64,000 nucleotides of DNA from Myxococcus stipitatus (GTDB taxonomy: Bacteria; Myxococcota; Myxococcia; Myxococcales; Myxococcaceae), in NCBI RefSeq assembly GCF_038561935.1, contig NZ_CP102770.1, forward strand, positions 8,122,001 to 8,186,000, read 5' to 3'. This document shows positions 17,717-42,319 of the stretch, one piece after another; position 1 is the stretch's first letter, and each line of letters opens with the position of its first letter. The notes under the pieces were generated by a model. It did no database searches. It saw only the letters and a list, made by a program, of their open reading frames with translations, and was not told the DNA's origin. Made by a program: the position numbers and the translations under genes.

Positions 17717-19309
17717 TCAGTGCACGGGGCGGGCGACCGCGGCGGCCGGGGTCTCCTTCACCGGCGTGAAGAGCAGGTCCTGGAAGTCGAAGCTGAAGTC
17801 GGTCAGCGGGGAGATGGGCTGCATCCGCATCTCCGCCAGCGTGCCATCGGGCTTCAGCGAGAAGGACACGAAGGCATCCGCGTTGAGCGAGCGGTCCGTC
17901 CAGCGCGCGACGAACGTGTCGTATTGCCAGTGGGACAGCTCACCGACGAGGCTCGGCGTCCGGGTGAAGCGCAGCAGCCACTTGTCGCCTTCCTTCGTCA
18001 CCGTCACGTCGCCGTACCACGCGTCGCGGTACTTGCCGGCGTAGGACTCCATCGGCAGGGACGGCTTGCTCTGCGCGTTGCGCATGCCGCCCTGGAGCGC
18101 CACCTTCTCCTCCGCCTTCGCGCGCTTGGAGTCGTCATCCGCCTTGAACGCGGCGACCCAGTCCGTCTTCGGCGCGCCGACGAACGCATCCAGCACCGTC
18201 CACAGGGGCACCTCGAAGCCGCTGCGCTCCTCCTGGTTCGTCAGCACGGCGATGCCCAGCCCCAGCTCCGGCACCAGCATCACCCGCGAGAAGTAGCCCG
18301 GCAGCGCGCCGCTGTGGCCCACGAGCTTGTAGCCCCGGTAGTCGCGCACGCCCCAGCCCAGCGCGTACGCGGAGAAGTTCGCGCGCAGGGACTCCAGCGA
18401 CTTGGAGGGCTCGGAGATGCCCATCACCGTCTGCGCCGCCCACATCTCCTTCGACTGCGCCTCGCTGAACAGGCGCTTCTTGCCGTCCGTGCCCGGAATC
18501 ACGCCGCGGCCCAGCTGCGTCATCATCCATTTGGCCAGGTCATTCACGGTGGAGTTGATGGCCGCCGCGGGCGCGTTGTTGTCGATGCTCGTGGGGGCCA
18601 GGGCCTTGAGCACCCCATCCGCCTTCGCGTGCGGCGTCGCGACGTTGGCCGCCACGCGCAGGCCCTTCACGTGCGTGCTGCTGTCGCGCATGCCCAGCGG
18701 CATGAAGATGCGCTCGCGCACGAAGTCGCGCCAGTGACGGCCGCTCGCCTTCTCGATGACCTTGCCCGCGACGAGGTAGAGGATGTTGTCGTAGGCGTAG
18801 CGGCTGCGGAAGCTGATGGACGGACGGATGTGGCGCAGCTTGGAGACAATCTCGTCCTCGGTGAACGTGGTCGGCGGGAAGTACAGCAAGTCACCCGCGC
18901 CCAGGCCCAGGCCGCTGCGGTGGACGAGCAAGTCCCGCACCGTCAGCTCCCGCGTGACGTACGGGTCGAACATCTGGAACGACGGCAGGTGGTCCACCAC
19001 GCGGTCGTCCCACTGGAGCTTCCCCTCGTCGACGAGGATGGCCAGCGCCGCCGCCGTGAAGGCCTTGCTGTTGGAGGCGATGTTGAACAGCGTGTCCGCC
19101 GTCACCGGCGTCGCGTCACCCTGCTTGCGCACGCCATAGCCCTTGGCCAGCAGGACCTTGCCGTCCTTCACCACGGCCAGGGCCACGCCAGGGACCTCGA
19201 AGGTCTTCAGGGTCCGCTCGATGGTCGCATCCAGGTCCGGTGGCAGGGATTGCGCGAGCGGGGAGGACAGCGGCAGGACGATGAGCAGCAGCGCGAGGGC
19301 AAGACGCAC
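17717..19309 (-). CDS. Exported beta-lactamase-fold serine hydrolase
   Basis: A 530-residue class C beta-lactamase / DD-peptidase-like protein. Signal peptide residues 1-20. The catalytic SxxK is S79-N-S-K82, the YxN motif is in YAYDN (about 190-195), and HSG (VGHSG) replaces KTG, as in many esterase or peptidase members. After the 380-residue catalytic domain there is a C-terminal DUF3471-like beta domain. It likely acts on peptides or esters in the periplasm; beta-lactam resistance cannot be concluded. The start is GTG 19309 with GGAG five bases upstream; a longer in-frame start would put 28 polar residues before the signal peptide. Confidence 0.88.
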   Translation of the reverse strand: MRLALALLLIVLPLSSPLAQSLPPDLDATIERTLKTFEVPGVALAVVKDGKVLLAKGYGVRKQGDATPVTADTLFNIASNSKAFTAAALAILVDEGKLQWDDRVVDHLPSFQMFDPYVTRELTVRDLLVHRSGLGLGAGDLLYFPPTTFTEDEIVSKLRHIRPSISFRSRYAYDNILYLVAGKVIEKASGRHWRDFVRERIFMPLGMRDSSTHVKGLRVAANVATPHAKADGVLKALAPTSIDNNAPAAAINSTVNDLAKWMMTQLGRGVIPGTDGKKRLFSEAQSKEMWAAQTVMGISEPSKSLESLRANFSAYALGWGVRDYRGYKLVGHSGALPGYFSRVMLVPELGLGIAVLTNQEERSGFEVPLWTVLDAFVGAPKTDWVAAFKADDDSKRAKAEEKVALQGGMRNAQSKPSLPMESYAGKYRDAWYGDVTVTKEGDKWLLRFTRTPSLVGELSHWQYDTFVARWTDRSLNADAFVSFSLKPDGTLAEMRMQPISPLTDFSFDFQDLLFTPVKETPAAAVARPVH

Positions 19310-19417
19310 GAAGACTCCGAAAGAGGTGCCGGTTCGGCGTCCCTGTCTAGCCCACTTCGGGACCCCGCCCCAGCGCCTCCCGCCGCGAGGCATACCTCGC
19401 CCCGCCCCCGCGTCCGC

Positions 19418-21697
19418 TCAGACGTAGCCGAACCGGCGCCGCGCGAACCACTCCGCGCCCAGCAGGCCGATGAGGGCCACCAGGTAGTACCAGCGGTCCC
19501 ACAGCGGCTGGTCCTTCGCGCGGCCCACCTCGACGACCGGCGGGTCGAGCAGCGGCACGTCCGGCAGCCCGTCCTGCGGCAGCTTGTACGACTTGCCGCC
19601 CGTCACCTGCGCAATGGCCTCCATCAGCTCCGGCCGCACGGAGGCATCCGACAGCTCCGGGCCCACCGCGCGCACCGCCACCGCGTCCTCGCCCTGCCCC
19701 AGCTCCGTCTCACCCTTCTTCGCCGTCGCGAGCAGCTTGTATGGCCCCGGCTCGGGCGGCGCGAACTCCAGGCGCACCACGCCGTCCTGTCCCGTCGCGC
19801 CCGTCTGCACCGCCACGGCCTTCTGCGAGGCCACGGAGAACAGCTCCACGCGGACCTGGGCGTCCTGCGCGGGCTGGTAGTCCGCGCTGCGCGCCTGCAC
19901 CACCACCGCCACGGGGCGCCCCGGCTCCACCGCCGGAGGGTCCGCCGTCACCTTCAGCGTCGTCAGGTCCGGGTCCCGCACCAGCCACCGCAGCGCATTG
20001 CCCCAGAAGCGGTCATACGCGCGGTTGGGCGAGCCATCCCGGTGCGCCGCGAACGCCCAGTACCAGGACGCGTCCGTGGCCATCACCAGCGAGCGGCCCC
20101 GGCCGTAGTCCCACACGGCCACGAGCGGCGCGTTCTTCCCGTCCGTGGTGAGATGCGGATGCTCCAGCAACACCGTGGCACCTGGGCGCGCACGCGTCAG
20201 GTTGGCGCCCGGGATGGGCGGCAGCTGCGCCCACGCGGCCTCGGTGGCGGACGCGCCCATGCCGATGGCCGTCACCGGGTGGCGCAGGCCCTCCGGCGTG
20301 AGGCGCGCGGTGAAGGGCTCCGGGTTGGCGGGGCCCGCGGCGACCACGGGCAGCGCTTCCATGAGCGTGGGCATGTTGGCGCGGCCCTCGCCCAGCACGC
20401 TGTCGCCGCCCAGCATCACGAAGGCGCCGCCGTTGTGGATGTAGCGCTCCAGGTTGCGCTCGTACTCGGCGATGGAGAGCGACGGGTCCGTGTAGCCGAA
20501 GTTCTGGAAGATGACGACGTCGAAGGTGTCCAGCTTCGTGTCGAAAATCTCCTCCATCGGGAACGGGATGAGGGACAGCTCGCGGTCGTTGTTCGTGCCC
20601 GGGTCGTCCGACAGCGTGCGCAGGATGTAGAACGAGATGAGGTCCACGTTGGCGTCCTGCTTCAGCAGGCCGCGCAGGTAGCGCTCGTCCCACGAGGGGC
20701 GGCCCACCACGAGCAGCACGCGCACGCGGTCCCGGATGACCTTCAGCGTGAAGGAGCGGCTGTTGTTCTCCGCCACCGCCTCGTCCGGGAAGGTGGGCAC
20801 CGACACCGTGTAGACGAACCGGCCCGTCTGGTCCGGCGTGAAGGTGAAGGACACGGGCTTCACGTCGTCGGAGGTCTCCAGGCGCACCGTCTTGCTCGCC
20901 ACCGTCTTGCCCTCCTGGCGGAGGACGACGGGAATCTCCTGGCCTCGGAAGCCCCGGCCATGAATCTCCGCCTCCACCGTGAGCGAGTTGCGCACGAAGG
21001 CGAAGTCATCCACCTTCAGCGCCTCGATGGAGAGGTCCTTGAGCGCCTCCTGTCCCACGGTGAAGGTGGAGACGGGCACGCCCAGGTCCACCAGCGCCGC
21101 GCGGGCCCGGCCCACCGCGCCCGCCTTCAGCTCCGCGTTGTCCGTGCCATCGCTCAACAGCAACACGCCGGACAGCTTGCGCGCGCCCTGCCCCGCGCCC
21201 GCCACCGAGCGCAGCGCGGACAAGAGGTCCGTGGTGCCTCCGCGCGGCGCCTCCTTCACCAGCGACGCGGCCGTCACCGGCGTCAGCTCCGGGTCGAAGC
21301 CGTGCAGCTCCACCGTGAAGCGGTCCTGCAGGCCCTCGAGTCCCGGCGCCGCCTTCTCCAGGAAGCGGGCCACCTGCGCGGTGCGCGTGGGCCCGCCCGG
21401 CTCGGAGGGGAAGTCCATGGACGCGGAGCGGTCCACCAGCACCGCCACGCGGTTCTTCATCCGTGCGACCTGGAGGTGGCGGATGCCGGGCTCCAGGAGG
21501 AAGAACAGCGCGGCCACGCCCGCGCCCACGCGAAGCGCCCACAAGAGGACACGCCGTCCGCGCGACGGCTCCTTGCGCACGCCCCACGCGGCCAGCGCCA
21601 CTCCCAGGAGCAACCCGAGCGCGAGGAACACCACCGCCCAGGTGGGCAAGGGAGAGAGGCTGACGAGCTTCCAGGCGTTGAAGGTGGGGGAATTCAT
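19418..21697 (-). CDS. VWA and glutamine amidotransferase-like membrane protein
   Basis: A 759-residue inner-membrane protein. Two N-terminal helices (about 17-37 and 48-68) are followed by a von Willebrand A domain with the metal site DRSAS (near 89-93), then Ig-like beta domains, a class I glutamine-amidotransferase-like fold (about 310-520), another Ig-like region and a final membrane helix near the C-terminus. This is the architecture of the large exported VWA proteins that go with DUF4159, MoxR and DUF58 genes in several phyla. The DUF4159 gene lies 27 bp upstream on the same strand; MoxR and DUF58 are not in the window. Function unknown, probably envelope-related. Confidence 0.8.
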   Translation of the reverse strand: MNSPTFNAWKLVSLSPLPTWAVVFLALGLLLGVALAAWGVRKEPSRGRRVLLWALRVGAGVAALFFLLEPGIRHLQVARMKNRVAVLVDRSASMDFPSEPGGPTRTAQVARFLEKAAPGLEGLQDRFTVELHGFDPELTPVTAASLVKEAPRGGTTDLLSALRSVAGAGQGARKLSGVLLLSDGTDNAELKAGAVGRARAALVDLGVPVSTFTVGQEALKDLSIEALKVDDFAFVRNSLTVEAEIHGRGFRGQEIPVVLRQEGKTVASKTVRLETSDDVKPVSFTFTPDQTGRFVYTVSVPTFPDEAVAENNSRSFTLKVIRDRVRVLLVVGRPSWDERYLRGLLKQDANVDLISFYILRTLSDDPGTNNDRELSLIPFPMEEIFDTKLDTFDVVIFQNFGYTDPSLSIAEYERNLERYIHNGGAFVMLGGDSVLGEGRANMPTLMEALPVVAAGPANPEPFTARLTPEGLRHPVTAIGMGASATEAAWAQLPPIPGANLTRARPGATVLLEHPHLTTDGKNAPLVAVWDYGRGRSLVMATDASWYWAFAAHRDGSPNRAYDRFWGNALRWLVRDPDLTTLKVTADPPAVEPGRPVAVVVQARSADYQPAQDAQVRVELFSVASQKAVAVQTGATGQDGVVRLEFAPPEPGPYKLLATAKKGETELGQGEDAVAVRAVGPELSDASVRPELMEAIAQVTGGKSYKLPQDGLPDVPLLDPPVVEVGRAKDQPLWDRWYYLVALIGLLGAEWFARRRFGYV

Positions 21698-21724
21698 CCA
21701 GGCTCCCGGCGTCGGCCGGTGGCT

Positions 21725-22483
21725 TCAGCGCCGCTTGTTGAGGATGAGCGGCAGGTGGACGGCGTCGTCCTTGTAGTCCAAGCAGAGGGCGTACATGCAC
21801 ACGTTGATGCCCAGGCGCACCGCCAGCTCGCGCTGCGGCTCGCCGCCGGGGCTCACGTCGAACTCGAAGTCGCCCGTCTCATTGCGGCTCCACGCCCCGG
21901 CCACGTCGTTCTGCGAGTACAGCACCGCGGAGCGCTTGCCCAGGTTCGCCGCCAGCATCTGCGGCTTGTTGAGCAACCGTCCCGGCGCCGCGTCCAGGAG
22001 GAAGAAGGACTTGAACACCACGTGTCCGGAGGCCACCTCCGTCAGCGGGCTCTGCGGCAGCACCCGCGCCATCTCCCGGCGGAAGCTGGCGTCGAAGCCG
22101 TCCCCGTCGCTGCCGTCGTTGGCGTCCGCCAGCATGAAGCCGCCGTACGTCAGGTAGCGGCGCAGGTTGCCCACCTCCGCCTCGCTGAGCGGGGGGAAGG
22201 CGCCGTCGCCGCCGAAGTAGAGGAAGGGGTACTCGAAGAGGTCCGGGCTGCTGAGCGCGAAGGGCCGCGCGTCCGGCACCACCTCCACGGACGTGCGCCG
22301 CTGCAGCTCCCACGCGATGCGCCGCAGCCCCGACAGCCGTCCATCCCAACGGCCCCCGTGCTTCGCGACGGCGGGGATGAAGCGGCTCTTCTCACCGAAG
22401 GCCCACGCGCGCCGGGACAGCAGTGGGGCGAGCGCGGCGGTGCCGAGCAGGAGGTTTCGACGGGTCAGACGCCGCGCGGACAT
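21725..22483 (-). CDS. DUF4159 protein with Tat-like signal
   Basis: A 252-residue protein. The N-terminus has RRLTRRNLLLG followed by a hydrophobic stretch, which fits a twin-arginine signal peptide. The rest matches the DUF4159 pattern: a Rossmann-like glutamine-amidotransferase-type fold with PFLYFGGDGAFPPLS (about 85-99), GGFMLADANDG (114-124), the FRREM helix and a C-terminal NVCMYALCLDYKDDAVHLP segment. DUF4159 proteins are exported and usually genetically linked to VWA proteins, as here (27 bp). Its TTG/ATG region is divergent from the small gene at 22541, with 57 bp between. Confidence 0.85.
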   Translation of the reverse strand: MSARRLTRRNLLLGTAALAPLLSRRAWAFGEKSRFIPAVAKHGGRWDGRLSGLRRIAWELQRRTSVEVVPDARPFALSSPDLFEYPFLYFGGDGAFPPLSEAEVGNLRRYLTYGGFMLADANDGSDGDGFDASFRREMARVLPQSPLTEVASGHVVFKSFFLLDAAPGRLLNKPQMLAANLGKRSAVLYSQNDVAGAWSRNETGDFEFDVSPGGEPQRELAVRLGINVCMYALCLDYKDDAVHLPLILNKRR

Positions 22484-22540
22484 AGAGCGCCTCTATATAC
22501 CGTCGACGGGTGCTCGCATTCCCCGGTATAGAGCGGGGCC

Positions 22541-28478: not shown

Positions 28479-28546
28479 CGGCTCTCCATACCCCAAAGTG
28501 CCGCGATTGTTGCCAGAGGGTAATGCAGGAGCTATGCCCCTGCTTG

Positions 28547-30955
28547 ATGAGCGACATCCAAGAGCCCACCGCGCCGGGCAGCCCGGCCACCGACGAAGCG
28601 CCGACGCGTCCCGCCGAATACATCGCGGACATCGGCTTCGACGACATGAATCTGTCCGAGCCCCTGCGCCGTGCGTTGGCGGAGCGCGGCTACACCCACC
28701 CGACTCCTGTCCAGGCGCGCGCGTTCCGGCCGGCCATGGAGGGCAAGGACCTCATTGTTCGCAGCAAGACGGGCACCGGCAAGACGGCCGCGTTCGGCCT
28801 GCCCCTGTTGGAGAAGATTTCCCCGGATGACAAGCGCGTGCGCGCGCTCATCCTCTGCCCCACGCGGGAGCTGGCGCTCCAGGTGGCGGACGAGCTGACG
28901 AAGCTCGCGAAGTACAAGGGCGTGAAGGTGGCGGCCATCTACGGCGGCGCCTCCATGAAGCAGCAGGAGGACGCGCTCGAGGAAGGCACGCCCATCATCG
29001 TCGGCACGCCGGGCCGGGTGTTCGACCACATCCACCGGGGCAACCTGAAGCTGGATGGGTGCGACCACGCGGTGCTGGACGAAGCCGACGAGATGCTCAA
29101 CCAGGGCTTCTACGAGGAAGTCACCCGCATCCTCGACCGCCTTCCCAAGACGCGCCAGGTGCTGCTCTTCAGCGCCACCGTCCCCACGGACATCCAGAAC
29201 CTCATCGCGCGCTACACGACGAACGCGGAGACGCTCCTGCTCTCCGGCGACGTGTTCACCGTGGAGCACATCCACCACGTCCGCTACGACGTGTCGGACG
29301 CCTTCCCCAAGCCGCGCAACCTCATCTACGTGCTGGAGAAGGAAGAGCCCCAGAACGCCATCATCTTCTGCAACACGCGGGATGACACGGCGCTGGTGAC
29401 GGCGGTGCTCAACCGCAACGGCTTCGACGCGGAGCTGCTCAACGGAGACCTGCCGCAGAAGGAGCGCGAGCGGGTGATGGCCAAGGTGAAGCGCGGCGAG
29501 GTCGCCTTCATGGTGGCCACGGATATCGCGGCGCGCGGCATCGACATCTCCGGGCTGGAGTACGTCATCAACTACTCCCTGCCGGAGGACCCGGCCGTCT
29601 ACCTGCACCGCGTGGGCCGCACGGGCCGCATCGGCAACAAGGGCACGGCCATCAACCTCTTCTCCGGGCGCGAGCTGGCCACGTACACCGCGCTGGAGAA
29701 GAAGTACGGCATCAAGTTCGACAAGCAGGAGATGCCGGCGCCCGAAGAGGCCATGCGCCTGTGGACCGAGCGCCACGTGCGCGAAATCCAGGAGGCCGCT
29801 GGCAGCTCCGTGTTCGAGGGCTTCTTGCCCCTGGCCGCGCAGCTCAAGACGCGTCCCAACGCGGATGACCTGGTCGCCTTCCTGCTGAAGTACTTCTTCA
29901 GCCACCTGCGCATGGAGAAGGCCAAGGCCGCGCAGGAGGCCGAGGGCCGCGAGCCGACGCCGGAGCGCAAGCCCGAGGGCCGCCGCCGCGAGCGCGAGCG
30001 CGGGGACGAGCGCCGGGAGCGCGGCGAGCGCCGGGAGCGTGGCGAGAAGCCGCTGGCGCGCCCGGAGCATCCGGACCGCGAGCGCCGGCCGCGCCGGGAC
30101 GAGCCCCGCCGGGAGCGGGACTCCAGCCGTGGCGCCGCCGCGCTGGAGGCGGGCCCGGGCGAGGCGAAGCTGTGGGTGAACCTGGGGACCGCGGATGGCC
30201 TGGGGCCGGGCAGCATCGCCACGGCGCTGGAGGATGCGGGCGCGCCGCTGGGGAAGGTGGTGCGCGCGGAGCTGCGTCCCACGTTCGCGTACGTGTTCGT
30301 CGCGGACGAGGACGCCGCCGCGTTCGAGACGCTCAACGGCAAGCAGCACGGCTCCAAGACGCTTCGCGTGGAGAAGAGCAAGCCGCGCAGCGAGCGCGAG
30401 CCGGGCACGCGCCCGCCTCCGTCTCCGGACGCCGGCCCGGGCGAGGTGAAGCTGTGGACGAACCTGGGCTCCGATGACGGCATGGACGAGGCGAAGCTGC
30501 CCGCCGCGCTGGAAGCCGCGGGGGCTCCCGCGGGCAAGGTGCTCAAGGCGCTCCTGCGTCCCACGTACGGCTACGCCTACGTCGCCGAGGCCGACGCGCC
30601 GGAGTTCGAGGCGCTCAACGGCAAGACGGTGGGCGACAAGGTGCTGAAGCTGGAGCGGCACCGTCCTCGCGGCCAGCGCGAGGAGCGTCGTCCGCGTCAC
30701 GAGTCCCTGCCGGACGTGCCGGGCCAGGTGCGCCTGTGGGTCGGCCTGGGCAAGCAGGACGGGCTGGACGAGGCGGGTGTCGCCAGCGCGCTCGAGGCCG
30801 CGGGTGCTCCGGCCGGCAAGGTGGTGCGGATGGATTTGCGCCCCACGTACGCGTACGTGTTCGTCGCGGACGAGGACGCCACGGCCTTCGAGGCCACGCA
30901 CGGAAAGCAGCACGGTGAGCGCACGCTGAAGGTCGAGCGCGCGCGCAAGAAGTAG
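28547..30955 (+). CDS. DEAD-box RNA helicase with three DbpA-like RNA-binding modules
   Basis: An 802-residue RNA helicase. The RecA core has a Q motif, Walker A SKTGTGKT (73-80), PTREL, DEAD (178-181), SAT (209-211) and HRVGRTGR. A dimerisation-like segment follows to about 450, then a very Arg/Glu-rich linker (455-535). The C-terminus holds three tandem DbpA/CsdA-type RRM-like domains at about 536-615, 628-705 and 722-798. Each has LWxxLGxxDG, AxxxALExAGAPxGKV, LRPTxxYxxVAxxDAxxFE and LNGKxxGxKxLxxE blocks. Known bacterial members carry one such domain. It probably remodels ribosomal or structured RNA. An in-frame ATG at 28523 with AGAGGG close upstream is an alternative start. Confidence 0.92.
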   Translation: MSDIQEPTAPGSPATDEAPTRPAEYIADIGFDDMNLSEPLRRALAERGYTHPTPVQARAFRPAMEGKDLIVRSKTGTGKTAAFGLPLLEKISPDDKRVRALILCPTRELALQVADELTKLAKYKGVKVAAIYGGASMKQQEDALEEGTPIIVGTPGRVFDHIHRGNLKLDGCDHAVLDEADEMLNQGFYEEVTRILDRLPKTRQVLLFSATVPTDIQNLIARYTTNAETLLLSGDVFTVEHIHHVRYDVSDAFPKPRNLIYVLEKEEPQNAIIFCNTRDDTALVTAVLNRNGFDAELLNGDLPQKERERVMAKVKRGEVAFMVATDIAARGIDISGLEYVINYSLPEDPAVYLHRVGRTGRIGNKGTAINLFSGRELATYTALEKKYGIKFDKQEMPAPEEAMRLWTERHVREIQEAAGSSVFEGFLPLAAQLKTRPNADDLVAFLLKYFFSHLRMEKAKAAQEAEGREPTPERKPEGRRRERERGDERRERGERRERGEKPLARPEHPDRERRPRRDEPRRERDSSRGAAALEAGPGEAKLWVNLGTADGLGPGSIATALEDAGAPLGKVVRAELRPTFAYVFVADEDAAAFETLNGKQHGSKTLRVEKSKPRSEREPGTRPPPSPDAGPGEVKLWTNLGSDDGMDEAKLPAALEAAGAPAGKVLKALLRPTYGYAYVAEADAPEFEALNGKTVGDKVLKLERHRPRGQREERRPRHESLPDVPGQVRLWVGLGKQDGLDEAGVASALEAAGAPAGKVVRMDLRPTYAYVFVADEDATAFEATHGKQHGERTLKVERARKK

Positions 30956-34191: not shown

Positions 34192-34237
34192 CCAGGGGCC
34201 TTGCATGGCGGCGGCGGGGCTCGGCCATACTGAGGCC

Positions 34238-35650
34238 ATGTATTCCCTGCTCGCCGCACTGCTGCTCGCCGCCGCCCCCTCCACTCCGGCCCAGAAGGCC
34301 AAGGACCTCTCGGGACAGAAGGCCTGGGAGGAGCTGTACCTGGCGTTCGGCTCCGGCGACGAGAAGGCGGTCCCCGAGGAGCAGCGCGCCACGGTGTCCG
34401 GCGCGCTGGCGAAGGGCTGCCAGGCGATGCTGAAGGACGACGCCGTCATGGCGTACTCCATGGGCGAGCGCGCCATCGTCTACGAGGAGTCCGCGCCCGC
34501 GCTGCGCTGCCTGGCGACCGCCGCGCGCAAGACGGAGCAGCGCGCCGCCGCCGAGGCCGCCCTGCTCAAGGGCGTCACCCGCTTCCCCAAGGACGGTAGC
34601 TTCCCGCTGGAGCTGGGCAAGCTGCTGCTCGAGGAGCAGGACTCGGTGGGCGCGCAGGCCGCGCTGGAGAAGGTGCCTCCTCGCTCGCGCGAAGCGGCCG
34701 AGGCGAAGCGACTGCTCAAGCAGGCCCGGCAGCAGACGCTCCAGGAGGACGCGGCCCGCTCGGAGGCCACGCGCATCTCCCGCCGGCTGGGCGGGGGCGC
34801 CCCGCAGGCGGTGAGCCGGGGCGGGGATGAGACCTCCGTCGTGTCGCTCGGGACGCGGCCGGGGATGAGCGTGCGCGCACCCGACGTCGGCTTCGAGTCC
34901 CGCGTGGACGCCTCCGGCATGCGCGTGCGGGCCAACAACCGGTTCGTCATCAGCTACTTCGACAACCAGCGCGACTTCAGCCAGCGCGCCGACTACGAGG
35001 GCAAGGTCGTCGACATCCTCAACGACGCCTACCACTTCACCCGCCAGGTGCTCGGGGAGACGCGGGAGTCCCCCGTCGCCGTCGTGCTCTACACGGCCAA
35101 GGAGTTCGGAGCCACCTTCGGCCAGCGGGCGGCCCGCTTCATCGCGGGCAAGTACACGGAGAACGCCATCCGCATCAACGACGCGGCGGAGCTGACGCGA
35201 GAGACCCGGGCGACCCTCGTCCACGAGTACATCCACGCCGCCGTCTCCGACTTCTGCGGGGGCAATGACCAGGACATGGACAAGCTGCCCATCTGGTTCA
35301 ACGAGGGCCTGGCCATGTTCGTGGAGTGGAAGTACCTGGATGTGCCGGGTCCCAACCTGCGGCTGGCGAACGAGATGCGCGCCGTGCTGGCCGCGTCCGG
35401 CAAGCTCCCGAAGCTGCGGGACATGACCTGGGTCGCCCCGATGAACACCGCCTCCCCCCACATGGGCTACGCGGCGTCCGGACTCGCGGTCAAAGAAATG
35501 ATGCGCCGAGAGGGGGCCCACCGCCTGATGACCCTGCTGCGCGCGGTCTGCCAGCAAGGCTCCGGCTTTGACGAGGCGCTCAAGACCCACTACGGAATGA
35601 CCCTGGAGGACCTTGATACCGAGGTCGAACGTTCCATCGAGAAGAGGTAG
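34238..35650 (+). CDS. Exported gluzincin-type metallopeptidase-like protein
   Basis: A 470-residue protein. A hydrophobic N-terminus (LLAALLLAAAPS) is a signal peptide. Residues about 30-190 are helical with TPR-like repeats. The C-terminal domain has the zinc motif HEYIH (329-333) and a downstream E in WFNEGLAMFVE, the pattern of the peptidase MA-like gluzincins. It would act in the periplasm or envelope; substrates unknown. ATG 34238 starts the signal peptide; an in-frame upstream start adds 11 residues. It follows threonine ammonia-lyase by 46 bp but has no metabolic link to it. Confidence 0.83.
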   Translation: MYSLLAALLLAAAPSTPAQKAKDLSGQKAWEELYLAFGSGDEKAVPEEQRATVSGALAKGCQAMLKDDAVMAYSMGERAIVYEESAPALRCLATAARKTEQRAAAEAALLKGVTRFPKDGSFPLELGKLLLEEQDSVGAQAALEKVPPRSREAAEAKRLLKQARQQTLQEDAARSEATRISRRLGGGAPQAVSRGGDETSVVSLGTRPGMSVRAPDVGFESRVDASGMRVRANNRFVISYFDNQRDFSQRADYEGKVVDILNDAYHFTRQVLGETRESPVAVVLYTAKEFGATFGQRAARFIAGKYTENAIRINDAAELTRETRATLVHEYIHAAVSDFCGGNDQDMDKLPIWFNEGLAMFVEWKYLDVPGPNLRLANEMRAVLAASGKLPKLRDMTWVAPMNTASPHMGYAASGLAVKEMMRREGAHRLMTLLRAVCQQGSGFDEALKTHYGMTLEDLDTEVERSIEKR

Positions 35651-35770: not shown

Positions 35771-38700
35771 ATGTCGGACACGCGCGCAGCCATGAGAGAA
35801 TTTCGCTTCCTCGACGAGAAGCGGAAACTGGGAAGCCTGTCTCCCGTCGAGGAGGCACGCTGGGGCGAGCTGCGCGCGCACCTGGGCGTCCAGGACACCC
35901 CCGCGCCCGAGGCCGCCGCCTGGCAGCAGGAAGCGGCGCCCCAGGGCTACTACGGCGCCGACGGCCAGTGGTACGCCTACCCCGCCGGTTACGCCCAGCA
36001 GCCCCAGGGCTACTACGGCGCCGATGGCCAGTGGTACGCCTACCCCGCCGACCCGGCCTACGCCCAGCAGCCCCAGGGCTACTACGGCGCGGATGGCCAG
36101 TGGTACGCCTACCCCGCCGGCTACGACCCGAATCAGGCCTACGCGCAGCAGGGGTACGATCCCAACCAGGCCTACGCGCAGCAGGGCTACGACCCGAACC
36201 AGGCCTATGCCCAGCAGCAGGGGTATGACCCCAACGCGGGCTACCCCGGCTACGACCCGAACCAGGCCTACGCCCAGCAGCAGGGCTATGACCCCAACGC
36301 GGGCTACCCCGGCTACGACCCGAACCAGGCCTATGCCCAGCAGCAGGGCTATGACCCGAACCAGGGTTACGCCGAGGGCTGGCCAGCCTCGCCCCAGGAT
36401 GCACAGGGGGTCGCGGGCTACGAGCAGGCGCCTCAGGACCCTGCCGCCTACGCCCCATCCGCGGAGCCGGAGAACCTGGCCCTCAGCTCCGATGACATCG
36501 ACATCCCCGCGCTGAGCGAGCCCGCGCCGTGGATGCCCCCCAGCCCCACGCCTGTCCCCATCGCTCCCGCGTCGGCCACGTCGACGTCCGCTTCGTTCGC
36601 GGATGTCCTCGATGATTCGGGCGCGGAGGGTGACGCGGTGGGGCTGGAGTCCCCTTCGTTCGACACGGTGTCCGAGGAGACCGCCACGGCCCCGGAGGAG
36701 GACTTCGGGGAGCTGGATGCGCAGCCGGAGCCCGTGGTCCAGGCTCGCGCGCCGGAGGCATCGCTCGAGTCGTCCTTCGCCGACCTCTCGCTCGAGGTCG
36801 AGTCGGCGCCGATGGATGTCTCGGACGCCGTGCTCGAGGTGGCCTCGTCCGAGTCCGAGCTGGAGGTGCCGTCGTCGGAGATCGAGCTGGTCGACGCCTC
36901 GGGTGACAGCGAGCCCGTGCTGGCCGAGGAGCGCGCCGCGCCCGTGGACGAGGCGTGGGCTTCCGCGCCGCTCGCCGTGGATCCGCTCGAGTCCGCCGTG
37001 GAGGAGCTCGCGGACGCGAACGACGTCATCGACGTGGGGGCCATGGATGCGGCCTCGCTCGATGCGTCCGACATGCTCGAACCCATCGCTCCGGAGTCGA
37101 GCAGCGAACAGCTGTCCCCCGCCACCGAGAACGGGGCGGCCGTGGACGCGGCTCCAGGTGGAGCTGACGCCTCGGTGGAGGAGATTGCCCTCGACAGTGC
37201 CGACGTGAGTGCGTCGGATCTGGATTCGCGCCCTCCGCTGGAGCTGCATCATGCGGATCCGCGGGAAGCCGATGCGTGGACCGCGTCCATGGAGACCGAG
37301 TCCACTCCGGAGCCTTCCGCGTCGGTGCTCGACACGGAGTCCGCGCCGGAGGAGCACCTGAGCGCCGAGTCGTTCGATGCGCCGGTGGCCGCGGGCGAGG
37401 CGCCGACGTTCGACGTGGCGGACCTGGGCGCGGAAGAGACGATGTCCTCGGAGACGTCGCCGTTCGATTCCTCGACGGTGCCGTCGCTGGAGATTCGTTC
37501 GGTGCGCGTCGGGCCGGATCTCCAGGCCGACACGGTCGAGGTCGACACCGATGCGGCGGTCCTCCCGGAGGTCGGGACGACAGCAGCCGAGACGTTCGAC
37601 CTGAGTGGCAGCCCCGAGGATGCGGTGCCCCTCGCGGCGGCGGGTGACTTCGTCTCGTCCGAACAGTTCGCTGGCTCGAATGACCGAGGGCTGGAGCTGT
37701 CTCCCGAGAGCTCCGCTGAGGGTGATTGGAGCACGCAGTCGAGTGAGCTGGAGCCGCTCGCGAGCAGCGCGGGAATCATCACGGAGCAGCTCGCGACCGA
37801 GGAGGCGGGGACCCTCGAGCTGCAACCCGCGTGGGCCGCCACCGCGGATACGTCCACGGCGGGAGCTTCCGAGTGGAGCGAGAGCGCCGCGTCAGCAGGG
37901 TCTGACGTCATCGAGCTCCAGCCCGAGTGGGCCTCCGCGTCCAGCGAGGCTGCGACCGAGGGTTCCTCGGTGGAGGGTGTTGTTGCCCTCGATGCGAGCG
38001 AGGCGGTGGCCGAGGAAGGGCAGCCCGAGTGGGCGGCGTCCGCGAGTGAGTCGGCCCCTGCAGGTGCGGCGCAGTCGGAGTGGGCAGCGACGGCGAGTGA
38101 CGCCACAGCGGGGCAGTCTGAGTGGACTGCCACCGCCGAGGAACTCCCCGCCGATGCCGTCCAGGCGGAGTGGGACTCGAGCGCGAGCGGCGCCACCGCG
38201 ACTCAGTCCGAGTGGGCTGCGACGACCGCAGAGCTTCCGGCTGATGCGGTTCAGGAGGAGTGGGCGGCGACGGCTAGCGATACCGCTGCGGCGCAGCCTG
38301 AGTGGACCTCCGCCGAAGAGCTTCCGGCCGACGCTGTTCAGGCGGAGTGGGCACCCGAGGCTGGCACGCCTGTAACCGGTGTGGCGCAGCCTGAGTGGAC
38401 GGCTGCCACCGAGGAGCTTCCCGCCGACGCCGTTCAGGCGGAGTGGGCCTCGGGTACGAGCGACGCCATTGCGACGCAGTCCGAATGGGCAGCGGCGACT
38501 GAGGAACTTCCGGCTGACGCGGTTCAGTCGGAGTGGGCAACCGCTGAAGGCACTCCGGCCTCTGGCGAGACGCAGCCTGAGTCGGCTGTCGCCACCGAAG
38601 AACTTCCTGCGGATGCGATTCAAGCGGAGTGGGCAACCACCGAGGGAACGCCTGCATCCGGAGAAGCACAACCCGAGTGGGCCGCTACGGCTGAAGAGCT

Positions 38701-41700
38701 TCCCGCTGATGCCGTTCAGGCGGAGTGGGCAACCGCCGAGGGAACGCCTGCATCCGGAGAAGCACAGCCCGAGTGGGCCGCCACGGCTGAAGAGCTTCCC
38801 GCCGATGCCGTTCAATCGGAGTGGTCTGCCACTGCGAGCGCGCCCGCCTCCGGAGAGGCACAGCCCGAGTGGGCCGCTACGGCTGAAGAGCTTCCCGCTG
38901 ATGCCGTTCAATCGGAGTGGTCCGCCACTGCGAGCGTGCCCACGTCTGGAGAGGCACTGCCTGAGTGGTCCGCCACGGCTGAAGAGCTTCCCGCTGACGC
39001 CGCTCAATCGGAGTGGTCTGCCACGACGAGCGCGCCCGCATCCGGAGAGGCACAACCTGAGTGGTCCGATACCGTTGAGGAACTCCCTGCTGACGCCGTT
39101 CAGGAGGAGTGGGCATCCACGGAAAGTGCTCCCGTAGCAGGCTCCCCTCAGCCCGAGTGGGCGACCACAGCCGAAGAGCTTCCCGCCGACGCCGTTCAGG
39201 CGGAGTGGGCACCCGAGACTGGCACGCCTGTAACCGGTGCGGCGCAGCCTGAGTGGACGGCTGCCACCGAGGAGCTTCCCTCCGACGCCGTGCAAGCGGA
39301 GTGGGCACCCGAGACCAACACGCCAGAACCTGGTGCGGCACAGCCCGAGTGGTCCGCGTCAGTCGAAGAGCTTCCCGCCGACGCCGTTCAGGCGGAGTGG
39401 GCTCCCGAAACGAGCACTCCTGAAACCGGCACGGCCCAGCCTGAGTGGTCCGCGTCAGTCGAAGAGCTTCCCGCCGATGCCGTGCAAGCGGAGTGGGCAT
39501 CCACGGAAGGCGCCCCTGTCACTGGCTCCACGCAGCCTGAGTGGGCAGCCTCGGCCGAGGAGCTTCCGGCTGATGCTGTTCAGGCGGAGTGGGCCCCCGA
39601 GGCCAACACTTCCGTAACGGGTTCGGCACAGCCTGAGTGGGCGGCCACCGCCGAGGAGCTTCCAGCCGACGCAGTTCAGTCCGAGTGGGCTCCCGAGACC
39701 AGCGCCCCCGTGGCGGGTGCGGCACAGCCTGAGTGGGCGGCCACCGCCGAGGAGCTTCCCGCCGACGCCGTTCAGGCGGAGTGGGCTCCCGAGACCAGCG
39801 CTCCCGTAGCGGGTGCGGCACAGCCCGAGTGGGCTGCGACGGTCGAAGAGCTTCCCGCTGATGCCGTTCAGGCGGAGTGGGCAACCGCCGAGGGAACGCC
39901 TGCATCCGGAGAGGCACAGCCCGAGTGGGCCGCCACGGCTGAAGAGCTTCCCGCCGATGCCGTTCAATCGGAGTGGTCTGCCACTGCGAGCGCGCCCGCC
40001 TCCGGAGAGGCACAGCCCGAGTGGGCCGCTACGGCTGAAGAGCTTCCCGCAGATGCGGTCCAAGCGGAGTGGAGCGCCTCGGAGAGCGAGCCCGCGCCCA
40101 CCACCACGCAACCTGAGTGGGCAGCCACCGCCGAAGAGCTTCCGGCCGATGCCGTTCAGGCCGAATGGAGCGCATCGGAGAACGAGCCCGTTCCCACCAC
40201 TGCTCAGCCTGAGTGGTCCACGGCAACCGAAGAGCTCCCCGCCGATGCCGTTCAGGCTGAGTGGGGCGCGACTGAGAACGCACCTGCCTCCGCGCAGCCC
40301 GAGTGGTCCGCGACAGCCGAAGAGCTCCCTGCCGACGCAGTCCAAGTGGAGTGGAGCGCTACGGCGAACGACGCGGCGACGGCCACGGCTGAAGAGCTTC
40401 CCGCTGACGCAGTCCAAGCAGAGTGGGAAGCCAACACGAGCACTCCTGCGGTGGGCTCCACCGCGCAGCCCGAATGGGCCGCGACGGCCGAAGAGCTCCC
40501 TGCCGATGCCGTTCAGTCCGAATGGGCAGCCACCTCGGCGACACCAGAGACCGGCGCTGTGCAACCGGAGTGGTCCGCGACAGTCGAGGAACTTCCCGCT
40601 GATGCGATTCAACCGGAGTGGGAGACGAACGCGGTAGCCGCCGCACCTGGCGCTGCTCAGCAGGAGTGGTCCGCCACGACGGAAGAACTCCCCGTCGACG
40701 CAGCCCAGCCCGAGTGGGCCGCCCACACGGGGACGCCCGCGTCCGATGCCGCACAGCCTGAGTGGTCGGTGACCACGGAAGAACTCCCCGCCGATGCGGT
40801 TCAGTCCGAGTGGGCTTCCTCCACCGGTGCGTCCGCACCTGCCGCAACGCAACCCGAGTGGTCCGCCACCACCGAGGAACTCCCCGCCGACGCCGTTCAG
40901 TCCGAGTGGGACTCGACTGCGAACGCCTCTGGCACCACCCAGCCTGAGTGGTCCGCCACCGCCGAGGAACTCCCCGCCGACGCCGTTCAGTCGGAGTGGG
41001 ATTCCGCTGCGAACGCCTCCGGCACCGCCCAGCCCGAGTGGGCTGCCACGACGAGCGCCCCCGCCACCGCGCAGCCCGGATGGTCCTCCGAAGAGCTCCC
41101 CGCGGACGCCGTCCAGTCCGAGTGGGACTCCACCGCGAACGCTCCCGCCACCGCTCAGACCGAGTGGGCCGCTGAAGAACTCCCCATCGACACGGCGCAG
41201 CCCGAGTGGGCCTCCACAAGCGCCCCCATGACCGGAGCCGCGCAGTCCGAGTGGGCCGCCGAGGAACTCCCCGCCGACGCCGTCCAGTCCGAGTGGGACT
41301 CCGCCGCGAGCCCCCCCGCCGCCGCACAGTCCGAGTGGGCCGCCGAGGAACTCCCCGCCGACGCCGTCCAGTCCGAGTGGGACTCCACCGCGAACACCCC
41401 CGCCACCGCGCAGTCCGCGTGGGCCACGCCCGGCACCGAAGCCACTCCCGAGTGGAGTGACTCGACCGGCACTCCGCCGTCCACCGAGCCCTGGAACAGC
41501 CCGTCCATCGACGTGGAGCCGACCCTCGAGCTGTCCACCGAGGAGCAGGCCCCCGTCGAGGCCATCCAGGTCGAAGAGGAAGTGTCCTGGGCCGAGCCGC
41601 CTGCGCCCCAGGCCAAGCCTTGGGTCTCTCGCGACAGCAGCCCGTTCGGCATGCCGGGGAAGGACTACTCCGCCCCCACCCCGAGCCCCGTCCTCACCTC

Positions 41701-42319
41701 GCCGCCCGTGGCTCCCCTCATGGAAGAGGAGGAAGTCGCCGTCGAGTTCGAACCCGAGCCGGAGCTCGCCGAAATCGAGCTGGTGGAAGAAGCCGCCGAG
41801 CCCGAAGCCGCGCCTCCTCGCACCGCCACCGCCACCGCCGCGGCGGCACTGAGCGCCGCGCTGCGCCCCTCCGCCCCCCCTCCCCCGCCGCCGCTCGCCG
41901 CGACCCACGAGCCGCTCTTCGAGGAAGAGCCCACCATGGGCACCTCCTCCTTCGTCGAGGGCGAGCACAAGGTCATCATCCACACCGTCGAAGGACAGGT
42001 GAAGCGCGGCACCATCCGCGACGCCGACCTGCTCGACGACGTCATCCTCCTGGAGCAGCAGAGCGGCTTCGCCGCGGAGCCCATCCCCGGCAAGCGCCTC
42101 AAGGCCATCTTCTTCGTCGTCCCCGCGGGCACGCGCCACCCGCCCGCGGAAGGTCAGAAGATTCGCGTCACCTTCAACGACGGCCGCCAGGTCGCGGGCT
42201 TCTCCCTCGACTTCAAGGGCAGCACCCCGGGCTTCTTCGTCGTCCCCGCCGACCAGCGCACCAACACGCCGCGCATCTTCATCTACCGCGCCAGCGTGCA
42301 GGCCGTGACGGAAGGCTGA
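35771..42319 (+). CDS. Giant acidic Trp-repeat protein with C-terminal DUF6982-like domain
   Basis: A 2182-residue protein with no signal peptide or membrane helix, so probably cytosolic. Order: a short helical head (FRFLDEKRKLG, then SPVEEARWGELRAHLG, to about 45); Tyr/Gln-rich repeats (60-205); an acidic Ser/Asp/Glu-rich disordered region (about 215-770); an array of about 35 units of 32 residues (about 780-1893), each made of two 16-residue halves that end in Q-x-E-W; an acidic Pro-rich linker; and a folded beta-rich domain (about 2060-2182, VIIHTVEGQVKRGTI, then GKRLKAIFFV and RVTFNDGRQVAG) that resembles the myxobacterial DUF6982. An AAGGTG ribosome site precedes the ATG. Function unknown; it looks like a long scaffold or condensate-forming chain. 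Lack of frameshifts over 6.5 kb argues for selection. Confidence 0.85.
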   Translation: MSDTRAAMREFRFLDEKRKLGSLSPVEEARWGELRAHLGVQDTPAPEAAAWQQEAAPQGYYGADGQWYAYPAGYAQQPQGYYGADGQWYAYPADPAYAQQPQGYYGADGQWYAYPAGYDPNQAYAQQGYDPNQAYAQQGYDPNQAYAQQQGYDPNAGYPGYDPNQAYAQQQGYDPNAGYPGYDPNQAYAQQQGYDPNQGYAEGWPASPQDAQGVAGYEQAPQDPAAYAPSAEPENLALSSDDIDIPALSEPAPWMPPSPTPVPIAPASATSTSASFADVLDDSGAEGDAVGLESPSFDTVSEETATAPEEDFGELDAQPEPVVQARAPEASLESSFADLSLEVESAPMDVSDAVLEVASSESELEVPSSEIELVDASGDSEPVLAEERAAPVDEAWASAPLAVDPLESAVEELADANDVIDVGAMDAASLDASDMLEPIAPESSSEQLSPATENGAAVDAAPGGADASVEEIALDSADVSASDLDSRPPLELHHADPREADAWTASMETESTPEPSASVLDTESAPEEHLSAESFDAPVAAGEAPTFDVADLGAEETMSSETSPFDSSTVPSLEIRSVRVGPDLQADTVEVDTDAAVLPEVGTTAAETFDLSGSPEDAVPLAAAGDFVSSEQFAGSNDRGLELSPESSAEGDWSTQSSELEPLASSAGIITEQLATEEAGTLELQPAWAATADTSTAGASEWSESAASAGSDVIELQPEWASASSEAATEGSSVEGVVALDASEAVAEEGQPEWAASASESAPAGAAQSEWAATASDATAGQSEWTATAEELPADAVQAEWDSSASGATATQSEWAATTAELPADAVQEEWAATASDTAAAQPEWTSAEELPADAVQAEWAPEAGTPVTGVAQPEWTAATEELPADAVQAEWASGTSDAIATQSEWAAATEELPADAVQSEWATAEGTPASGETQPESAVATEELPADAIQAEWATTEGTPASGEAQPEWAATAEELPADAVQAEWATAEGTPASGEAQPEWAATAEELPADAVQSEWSATASAPASGEAQPEWAATAEELPADAVQSEWSATASVPTSGEALPEWSATAEELPADAAQSEWSATTSAPASGEAQPEWSDTVEELPADAVQEEWASTESAPVAGSPQPEWATTAEELPADAVQAEWAPETGTPVTGAAQPEWTAATEELPSDAVQAEWAPETNTPEPGAAQPEWSASVEELPADAVQAEWAPETSTPETGTAQPEWSASVEELPADAVQAEWASTEGAPVTGSTQPEWAASAEELPADAVQAEWAPEANTSVTGSAQPEWAATAEELPADAVQSEWAPETSAPVAGAAQPEWAATAEELPADAVQAEWAPETSAPVAGAAQPEWAATVEELPADAVQAEWATAEGTPASGEAQPEWAATAEELPADAVQSEWSATASAPASGEAQPEWAATAEELPADAVQAEWSASESEPAPTTTQPEWAATAEELPADAVQAEWSASENEPVPTTAQPEWSTATEELPADAVQAEWGATENAPASAQPEWSATAEELPADAVQVEWSATANDAATATAEELPADAVQAEWEANTSTPAVGSTAQPEWAATAEELPADAVQSEWAATSATPETGAVQPEWSATVEELPADAIQPEWETNAVAAAPGAAQQEWSATTEELPVDAAQPEWAAHTGTPASDAAQPEWSVTTEELPADAVQSEWASSTGASAPAATQPEWSATTEELPADAVQSEWDSTANASGTTQPEWSATAEELPADAVQSEWDSAANASGTAQPEWAATTSAPATAQPGWSSEELPADAVQSEWDSTANAPATAQTEWAAEELPIDTAQPEWASTSAPMTGAAQSEWAAEELPADAVQSEWDSAASPPAAAQSEWAAEELPADAVQSEWDSTANTPATAQSAWATPGTEATPEWSDSTGTPPSTEPWNSPSIDVEPTLELSTEEQAPVEAIQVEEEVSWAEPPAPQAKPWVSRDSSPFGMPGKDYSAPTPSPVLTSPPVAPLMEEEEVAVEFEPEPELAEIELVEEAAEPEAAPPRTATATAAAALSAALRPSAPPPPPPLAATHEPLFEEEPTMGTSSFVEGEHKVIIHTVEGQVKRGTIRDADLLDDVILLEQQSGFAAEPIPGKRLKAIFFVVPAGTRHPPAEGQKIRVTFNDGRQVAGFSLDFKGSTPGFFVVPADQRTNTPRIFIYRASVQAVTEG
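35941..36380 (+). repeat. Tyr/Gln-rich tandem repeats in the giant gene
   Basis: Three near-identical copies encoding QGYYGADGQWYAYP (first near 35943, last ending near 36117), then about nine copies encoding GYDPNQAYAQQ or GYDPNAGYP (36120-36375). Composition (Tyr, Gln, Gly, Asn, Asp) resembles prion-like low-complexity sequence. Copies are close at DNA level, so recent expansion is likely. Confidence 0.85.
38110..41440 (+). repeat. 96-bp tandem array encoding 32-residue Trp units
   Basis: About 35 in-frame copies. Consensus half A is W-AATAEELPADAVQ-x-E and half B is W-x5-TPASGEAQ-P-E, so Trp recurs every 16 residues. Half A is highly conserved and half B varies. Copies in the middle are almost all exactly 96 bp; the last few (after about 40,900) lose residues from both halves. 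This is coding repeat, not CRISPR. Confidence 0.9.

Follow-up and report, generated by a model that had tools for sequence, protein, structure and literature searches.

The gene at positions 35771 to 42319 (plus strand) of the window, i.e. the whole stretch of 64,000 nt from Myxococcus stipitatus that was analysed, encodes a giant protein with periodically spaced tryptophans, which is better described as a member of an old, scaffold-like myxobacterial family in which the disordered middle turned into a Trp array in several genera. The repeat, the conservation of the protein, the selection on the peptide and the architecture of the chain are demonstrated. Regarding function we tentatively infer, with a probability of roughly 40%, a family-wide cytoplasmic scaffold, small and folded at its two ends and disordered and acidic over a very long middle, which would recruit clients or form clusters.

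Architecture and periodicity of the Trp array

The ORF call and the count of Trp gaps bore out the sequence-only reading of this DNA, which had described a product of 2182 residues with periodic Trp. From its composition the protein has a mass of ~226 kDa and a net charge of -380, is free of Cys and contains a stretch of 1309 residues without Lys or Arg, the longest of its kind in the chain (aa 640-1948). In the 10.17 Mb host genome, whose close relatives are Myxococcus, a genome search found the C-terminal domain DUF6982 at one locus, and there are no paralogs of the N-terminal segment, the Tyr-rich repeats, the Trp array or the linker motif. The gene, its upstream neighbor and its parts are the following:

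34205..35650, plus strand: upstream neighbor with TPR-like region and Peptidase_MA_2 (Pfam, synteny)
35771..42319, plus strand: whole gene, product of 2182 aa (ORF call, composition, ortholog survey)
35771..35905, plus strand: N-terminal segment, aa 1-45, MSDTRAAMREFRFLDEKRK..LSPxEEARWxELR, kept in orthologs
35938..36366, plus strand: Tyr-rich low-complexity repeats, three QGYYGADGQWYAYP units followed by GYDPNQ/AYAQQ units, shared by orthologs (Tandem Repeats Finder)
36416..37831, plus strand: acidic linker, aa 216-687, net charge -102 (composition)
37598..37651, plus strand: linker motifs DLSGSPED and VPLAAAGDF, candidate docking motifs (motif scan for the second)
37832..41623, plus strand: Trp array, aa 688-1951, 1264 residues, predicted to be disordered (composition, Trp gaps)
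38126..41380, plus strand: stretch of the array that carries the 34 EELPxDAVQxEW units of half A, aa 786-1870, units mostly 32 residues apart, falling to 28-30 at the end (motif count)
41624..41938, plus strand: Pro/Glu-rich linker, aa 1952-2056 (composition)
41939..42316, plus strand: DUF6982 (PF22478), aa 2057-2182, predicted to form two five-stranded Sm-like barrels (Pfam, AlphaFold2, Foldseek)

The array has 248 Asp/Glu, 79 Trp, only one Lys/Arg and neither Phe nor Tyr, and its net charge amounts to -0.195 per residue; the chain is acidic, as had been noted earlier, and from charge and hydropathy the array is also predicted to be disordered. Among the 88 gaps between the 89 Trp of the whole protein 51 measure exactly 16 residues and 16 measure 14, whereas shuffled sequences contained on average 2 and at most 9 gaps of 16 residues. 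The earlier description of a Trp every 16 residues in about 35 units of 32 residues holds with regard to these 51 gaps and to the 34 EELPxD copies of half A from aa 790 to aa 1864 (spacing exactly 32 in 23 of 33 cases), but not beyond aa ~1713, where the Trp pitch drifts to 14. Alignment of the copies agreed with the proposal that one half of the unit is strongly kept while the other varies: over 27 copies of the 16-residue half A the pattern E-E-L-P-x-D-A-V-Q-x-E-W is nearly invariant, and over 24 copies of half B the main kept element is Q-P-E-W.

Purifying selection maintains the peptide of the array and not the DNA alone. Between the 27 half-A copies dS is 1.30 and dN 0.09 (dN/dS 0.07), and between the half-B copies dN is 0.41 and dN/dS 0.33 at likewise heavily diverged synonymous sites (dS about 1.3), the exact ratios being rough because the copies were compared by plain Nei-Gojobori counting and because one segment of the Tyr region lies within the half-B set.

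An AlphaFold2 model of five 32-residue units showed no secondary structure (pLDDT 41, pTM 0.10; shallow alignment of 11 stretches of the array itself). Together with the composition this result favors disorder for the array and speaks against a solenoid, the two outcomes between which structure prediction had been suggested to decide. Profile searches with the array or its units found no family match in Pfam, NCBIfam, PHROGs or the PDB, in keeping with the impression that the repeat belongs to no known class. The literature searched contained nothing on the Trp array, its peptide strings or DUF6982, and the Trp-repeat protein, although conserved and larger than 200 kDa, seems to be undescribed and unstudied. 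Since Lys and Arg are almost absent from the array, proteomics based on trypsin would largely miss it.

Predicted folded ends and linkers

The sequence-only reading had pictured a cytosolic chain capped at both ends, which fits the helical-looking short N-terminus with its Tyr/Gln-rich repeats and the folded C-terminus, the latter being Pfam DUF6982. Neither a signal peptide nor a membrane segment is apparent by eye in the 2182 residues, so a cytosolic location is plausible. Judging from its sequence the N-terminal segment (aa 1-45) is probably a helical hairpin, and a similar, charged N-terminus is found in distant Myxococcota proteins. A sub-threshold Pfam match to Ephrin_CRD in the N-terminal stretch (E 5e-4) was taken as a low-complexity artefact. 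The acidic linker is ~85% identical over aligned columns to that of two close relatives and harbors a recurrent motif, Phi-x-L-A-x-x-A-D-F, which suggests a candidate docking site; its 29 hits, spread over 22 of 60 family members where shuffles led one to expect 0.1 hits, are descriptive, because the pattern was written after seeing the sequences and the relatives are not independent.

DUF6982 is the sole Pfam family matched in the protein (88.4 bits, curated score 24.5). Its AlphaFold2 model, based on 47 aligned sequences, is nearly all-beta with a pLDDT of 92.5 and ten strands readable as two barrels, and the domain is accordingly predicted to be a double Sm-like barrel. The most probable local matches of the model in Foldseek were Hfq/LSm chains (probability 0.97-1.00, 51-74 columns, rmsd mostly 2-4 A) with E-values >0.1, none of the matches falling below 0.001; the LSM/Hfq families of Pfam gave no hit in the protein, and a DUF6982 profile run against the PDB found Sm protein B at no better than E=1.6. 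As E-values and sequence profiles fall short, the name Sm-like refers here to the predicted fold and does not place the domain in the Sm superfamily. An internal duplication of the two barrels found no support in a profile comparison of the halves (19% probability). The Pfam entry shares the C-terminal 126 residues with the giant protein; it lists a domain of unknown function and is silent on the ~2000-residue disordered extension and its repeats.

Distribution of the family and turnover of the disordered region

We found a DUF6982 ortholog in 142 of 174 Myxococcota genomes, nearly always as a single copy; among the 76 Myxococcaceae genomes 70 have one, and among the 63 of good quality 60 do. 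Myxococcaceae orthologs have a common order of N-terminal segment, DGQWYAYP and GYDPN repeats, acidic linker, repeat region and DUF6982, of which the deepest family members show simpler versions, and protein length ranges from ~500 to 2358 aa with acidity kept throughout. Q-x-E-W arrays with a pitch of 12-16 and 22-70 copies occur in Myxococcus, Pyxidicoccus, Corallococcus, Citreicoccus, Archangium and one further genus; the ortholog of M. xanthus AM003, for example, has 1973 aa and 65 Trp. The unit peptide differs between these genera, EELPADAVQ arrays having been found in some Myxococcus only; Q-x-E-W, a content of 18-23% Asp/Glu and one of ~1% Lys/Arg persist in them. Hyalangium orthologs have many Trp and hardly any Q-x-E-W, Stigmatella/Hyalangium-like members have scattered Trp with Q-x-E-W almost absent, and several metagenome genera as well as most of the distant relatives have few Trp. 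Relatives from Anaeromyxobacter carry AWDPNAQPYDPN repeats in place of the Trp array in a related layout.

A check for orthologs lacking the array had been proposed as a way to expose a mere strain-level expansion; the presence of orthologs in most Myxococcaceae and of arrays across several genera rules this out. Unit and Trp content vary by genus, and the Trp array is thus a state, specific to certain lineages and quickly turned over, of a disordered region that is itself conserved; because several deep-branching relatives keep both ends with few Trp, it is dispensable for the ancestral function. Two distant Myxococcota (L138, L139) encode short stand-alone DUF6982 proteins, ~145 aa long and marked by the motifs KAVFFVK and SNN, which are possibly nearer to the ancestral form. 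A record labelled Comamonas sp. KCTC 72670 (L142) contains a Myxococcus-type ortholog in Myxococcus synteny, and its label is probably wrong.

Gene order around the DUF6982 gene is kept in much of Myxococcaceae. The neighboring TPR-like/Peptidase_MA_2 gene adjoins it in most of them and in the distant L122 and L126, from which we claim no shared function; its protein diverges faster (~50% identity) than the other neighbors (80-90%). The further conserved neighbors, glutamate dehydrogenase, a threonine ammonia-lyase type enzyme, YceI, a LigB-like protein and a sigma-54 activator, give no functional clue. Elsewhere in the window, a DEAD-box RNA helicase (28523-30955, plus strand) repeats VRLW/VKLWxxLGxxDG... 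in its C-terminal part, where three or more DbpA-like RNA-binding modules seem to follow one another in tandem, of which Pfam counted one stretch. An ORF of 1603 aa at 17720-22531 (plus strand) is probably spurious, having no Pfam family and a third-position GC of 0.68 as compared with 0.94-0.96 in the overlapping minus-strand ORFs.

Possible roles of an acidic Trp scaffold

A scaffold with many weak Trp motifs is favored on account of its PopZ-like layout and of a model developed for activation domains. The sequence-only reading had already suggested a long cytosolic scaffold, spacer or condensate former, of which the scaffold is plausible. GW182 with its AGO hook likewise carries numerous Trp motifs along a disordered chain; its Trp adjoin Gly and bind Argonaute, whereas in most copies of the giant protein the Trp is preceded by Q-x-E, and a Gly-Trp pattern was not found. 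In layout the giant protein resembles PopZ, the polar condensate scaffold of Caulobacter, which combines a short helix at its N-terminus with an acidic disordered linker, rich in Pro and conserved in composition rather than sequence, and with a domain for oligomerisation; its condensates balance attraction through this domain against repulsion through the acidic linker (PMC9512792). Helix (putative in the giant protein), acidic linker and folded end are shared, but the PopZ linker has 78 aa and its oligomerisation end is helical, while here a ~2000-aa middle with Trp repeats leads to a predicted beta-barrel; the charge per residue is -0.28 in PopZ (PMC9512792) against -0.195 in the array, with acidity kept across genera. 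Homology to PopZ was not detected, DUF6982 alone being matched in Pfam and the C-terminus being predicted as nearly all-beta.

According to the acidic exposure model, acidic spacing leaves the aromatic and Leu residues of activation domains exposed for hydrophobic surfaces (PMC10550315). Applied to the Trp scaffold, the Trp would act as stickers in an acidic spacer whose negative charges hold the chain expanded and the Trp exposed, so that many short Q-x-E-W copies could bind partners at once, recruit clients and probably give rise to a cluster or condensate. The DUF6982 end and the N-terminal helical segment may anchor or oligomerise the protein. Because the array is without positive charge, repulsion would oppose homotypic condensation, and clustering would need a partner or the folded ends; as the array can make no internal salt bridges or cation-pi contacts, these ends or a basic or hydrophobic partner are proposed as the drivers.

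Other readings account for part of the same evidence. Q-x-E-W, the most constant element of the array-bearing genera amid changing spacers, could be bound by the pocket of one particular partner, the array then being a specific multivalent docking strip that loads many copies of it without condensation, in the way that the Trp motifs of GW182 load Argonaute. Strong peptide-level selection on half A would suit such a strip, but the unit is inconstant between genera and Stigmatella/Hyalangium-like members have almost no Q-x-E-W, and we consider this possible but rather doubtful. It is unlikely that the acidic chain is merely an entropic spacer or bristle separating the folded ends or their surfaces, with the regularity of the Trp as a by-product of repeat expansion: length varies widely in the family while acidity persists, as a spacer would allow, yet selection retains half A and its Trp despite drifted synonymous sites, and 79 exposed Trp would be costly, sticky and unneeded. 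That a tandem DNA repeat expanded recently and neutrally, with no function of its own, is hardly credible. The array does differ even among close relatives (over aligned columns 71% identity, from one pair with G049 left out, vs 98% in the two ends), but the synonymous divergence between half-A copies at a dN/dS of 0.07 speaks against recent expansion at the DNA level, as do arrays in several genera.

The predicted resemblance of DUF6982 to Hfq/LSm also raises an RNA-organising hub, in which the double Sm-like domain would bind RNA and the disordered part would build an RNA-protein body, partly replacing Hfq. Myxobacteria are stated to have no hfq homolog, and other proteins may chaperone their sRNA Pxr (PMC5684412); in our survey Hfq family matches were absent from all 174 Myxococcota genomes and present in 5 of 14 control genomes. 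The absence of Hfq from the sample and the Sm-like fold make an RNA role worth testing. It is nevertheless an improbable reading, since DUF6982 has a nearly neutral charge (+1) and the remainder is strongly acidic, which disfavors RNA; moreover, the Foldseek similarity falls short of E-value significance, and LSm domains can bind peptides too, as that of Edc3 does with short helical ones (PMC6778109). Edc3 and RAP55/Scd6 of P-bodies also have a small Sm-like barrel ending a disordered chain, a likeness by predicted fold only; they are eukaryotic, with a single LSm barrel and a disordered part that is not an acidic Trp array. Slightly less probable still is a bacterial RNA-protein body scaffold whose double Sm-like domain and acidic Trp brush would organise RNA metabolism or small-RNA control in a phylum that seems to lack Hfq.

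Among bacteria, myxobacteria are a main model in which multicellular development, motility and condensates at the division site are studied. The ~70 orthologs of the putative Trp scaffold constitute a natural series: the composition of the disordered region, and in several genera also a motif of four residues, is preserved while the remainder is rewritten, and the series thereby lends itself to a direct test of sticker-and-spacer ideas.
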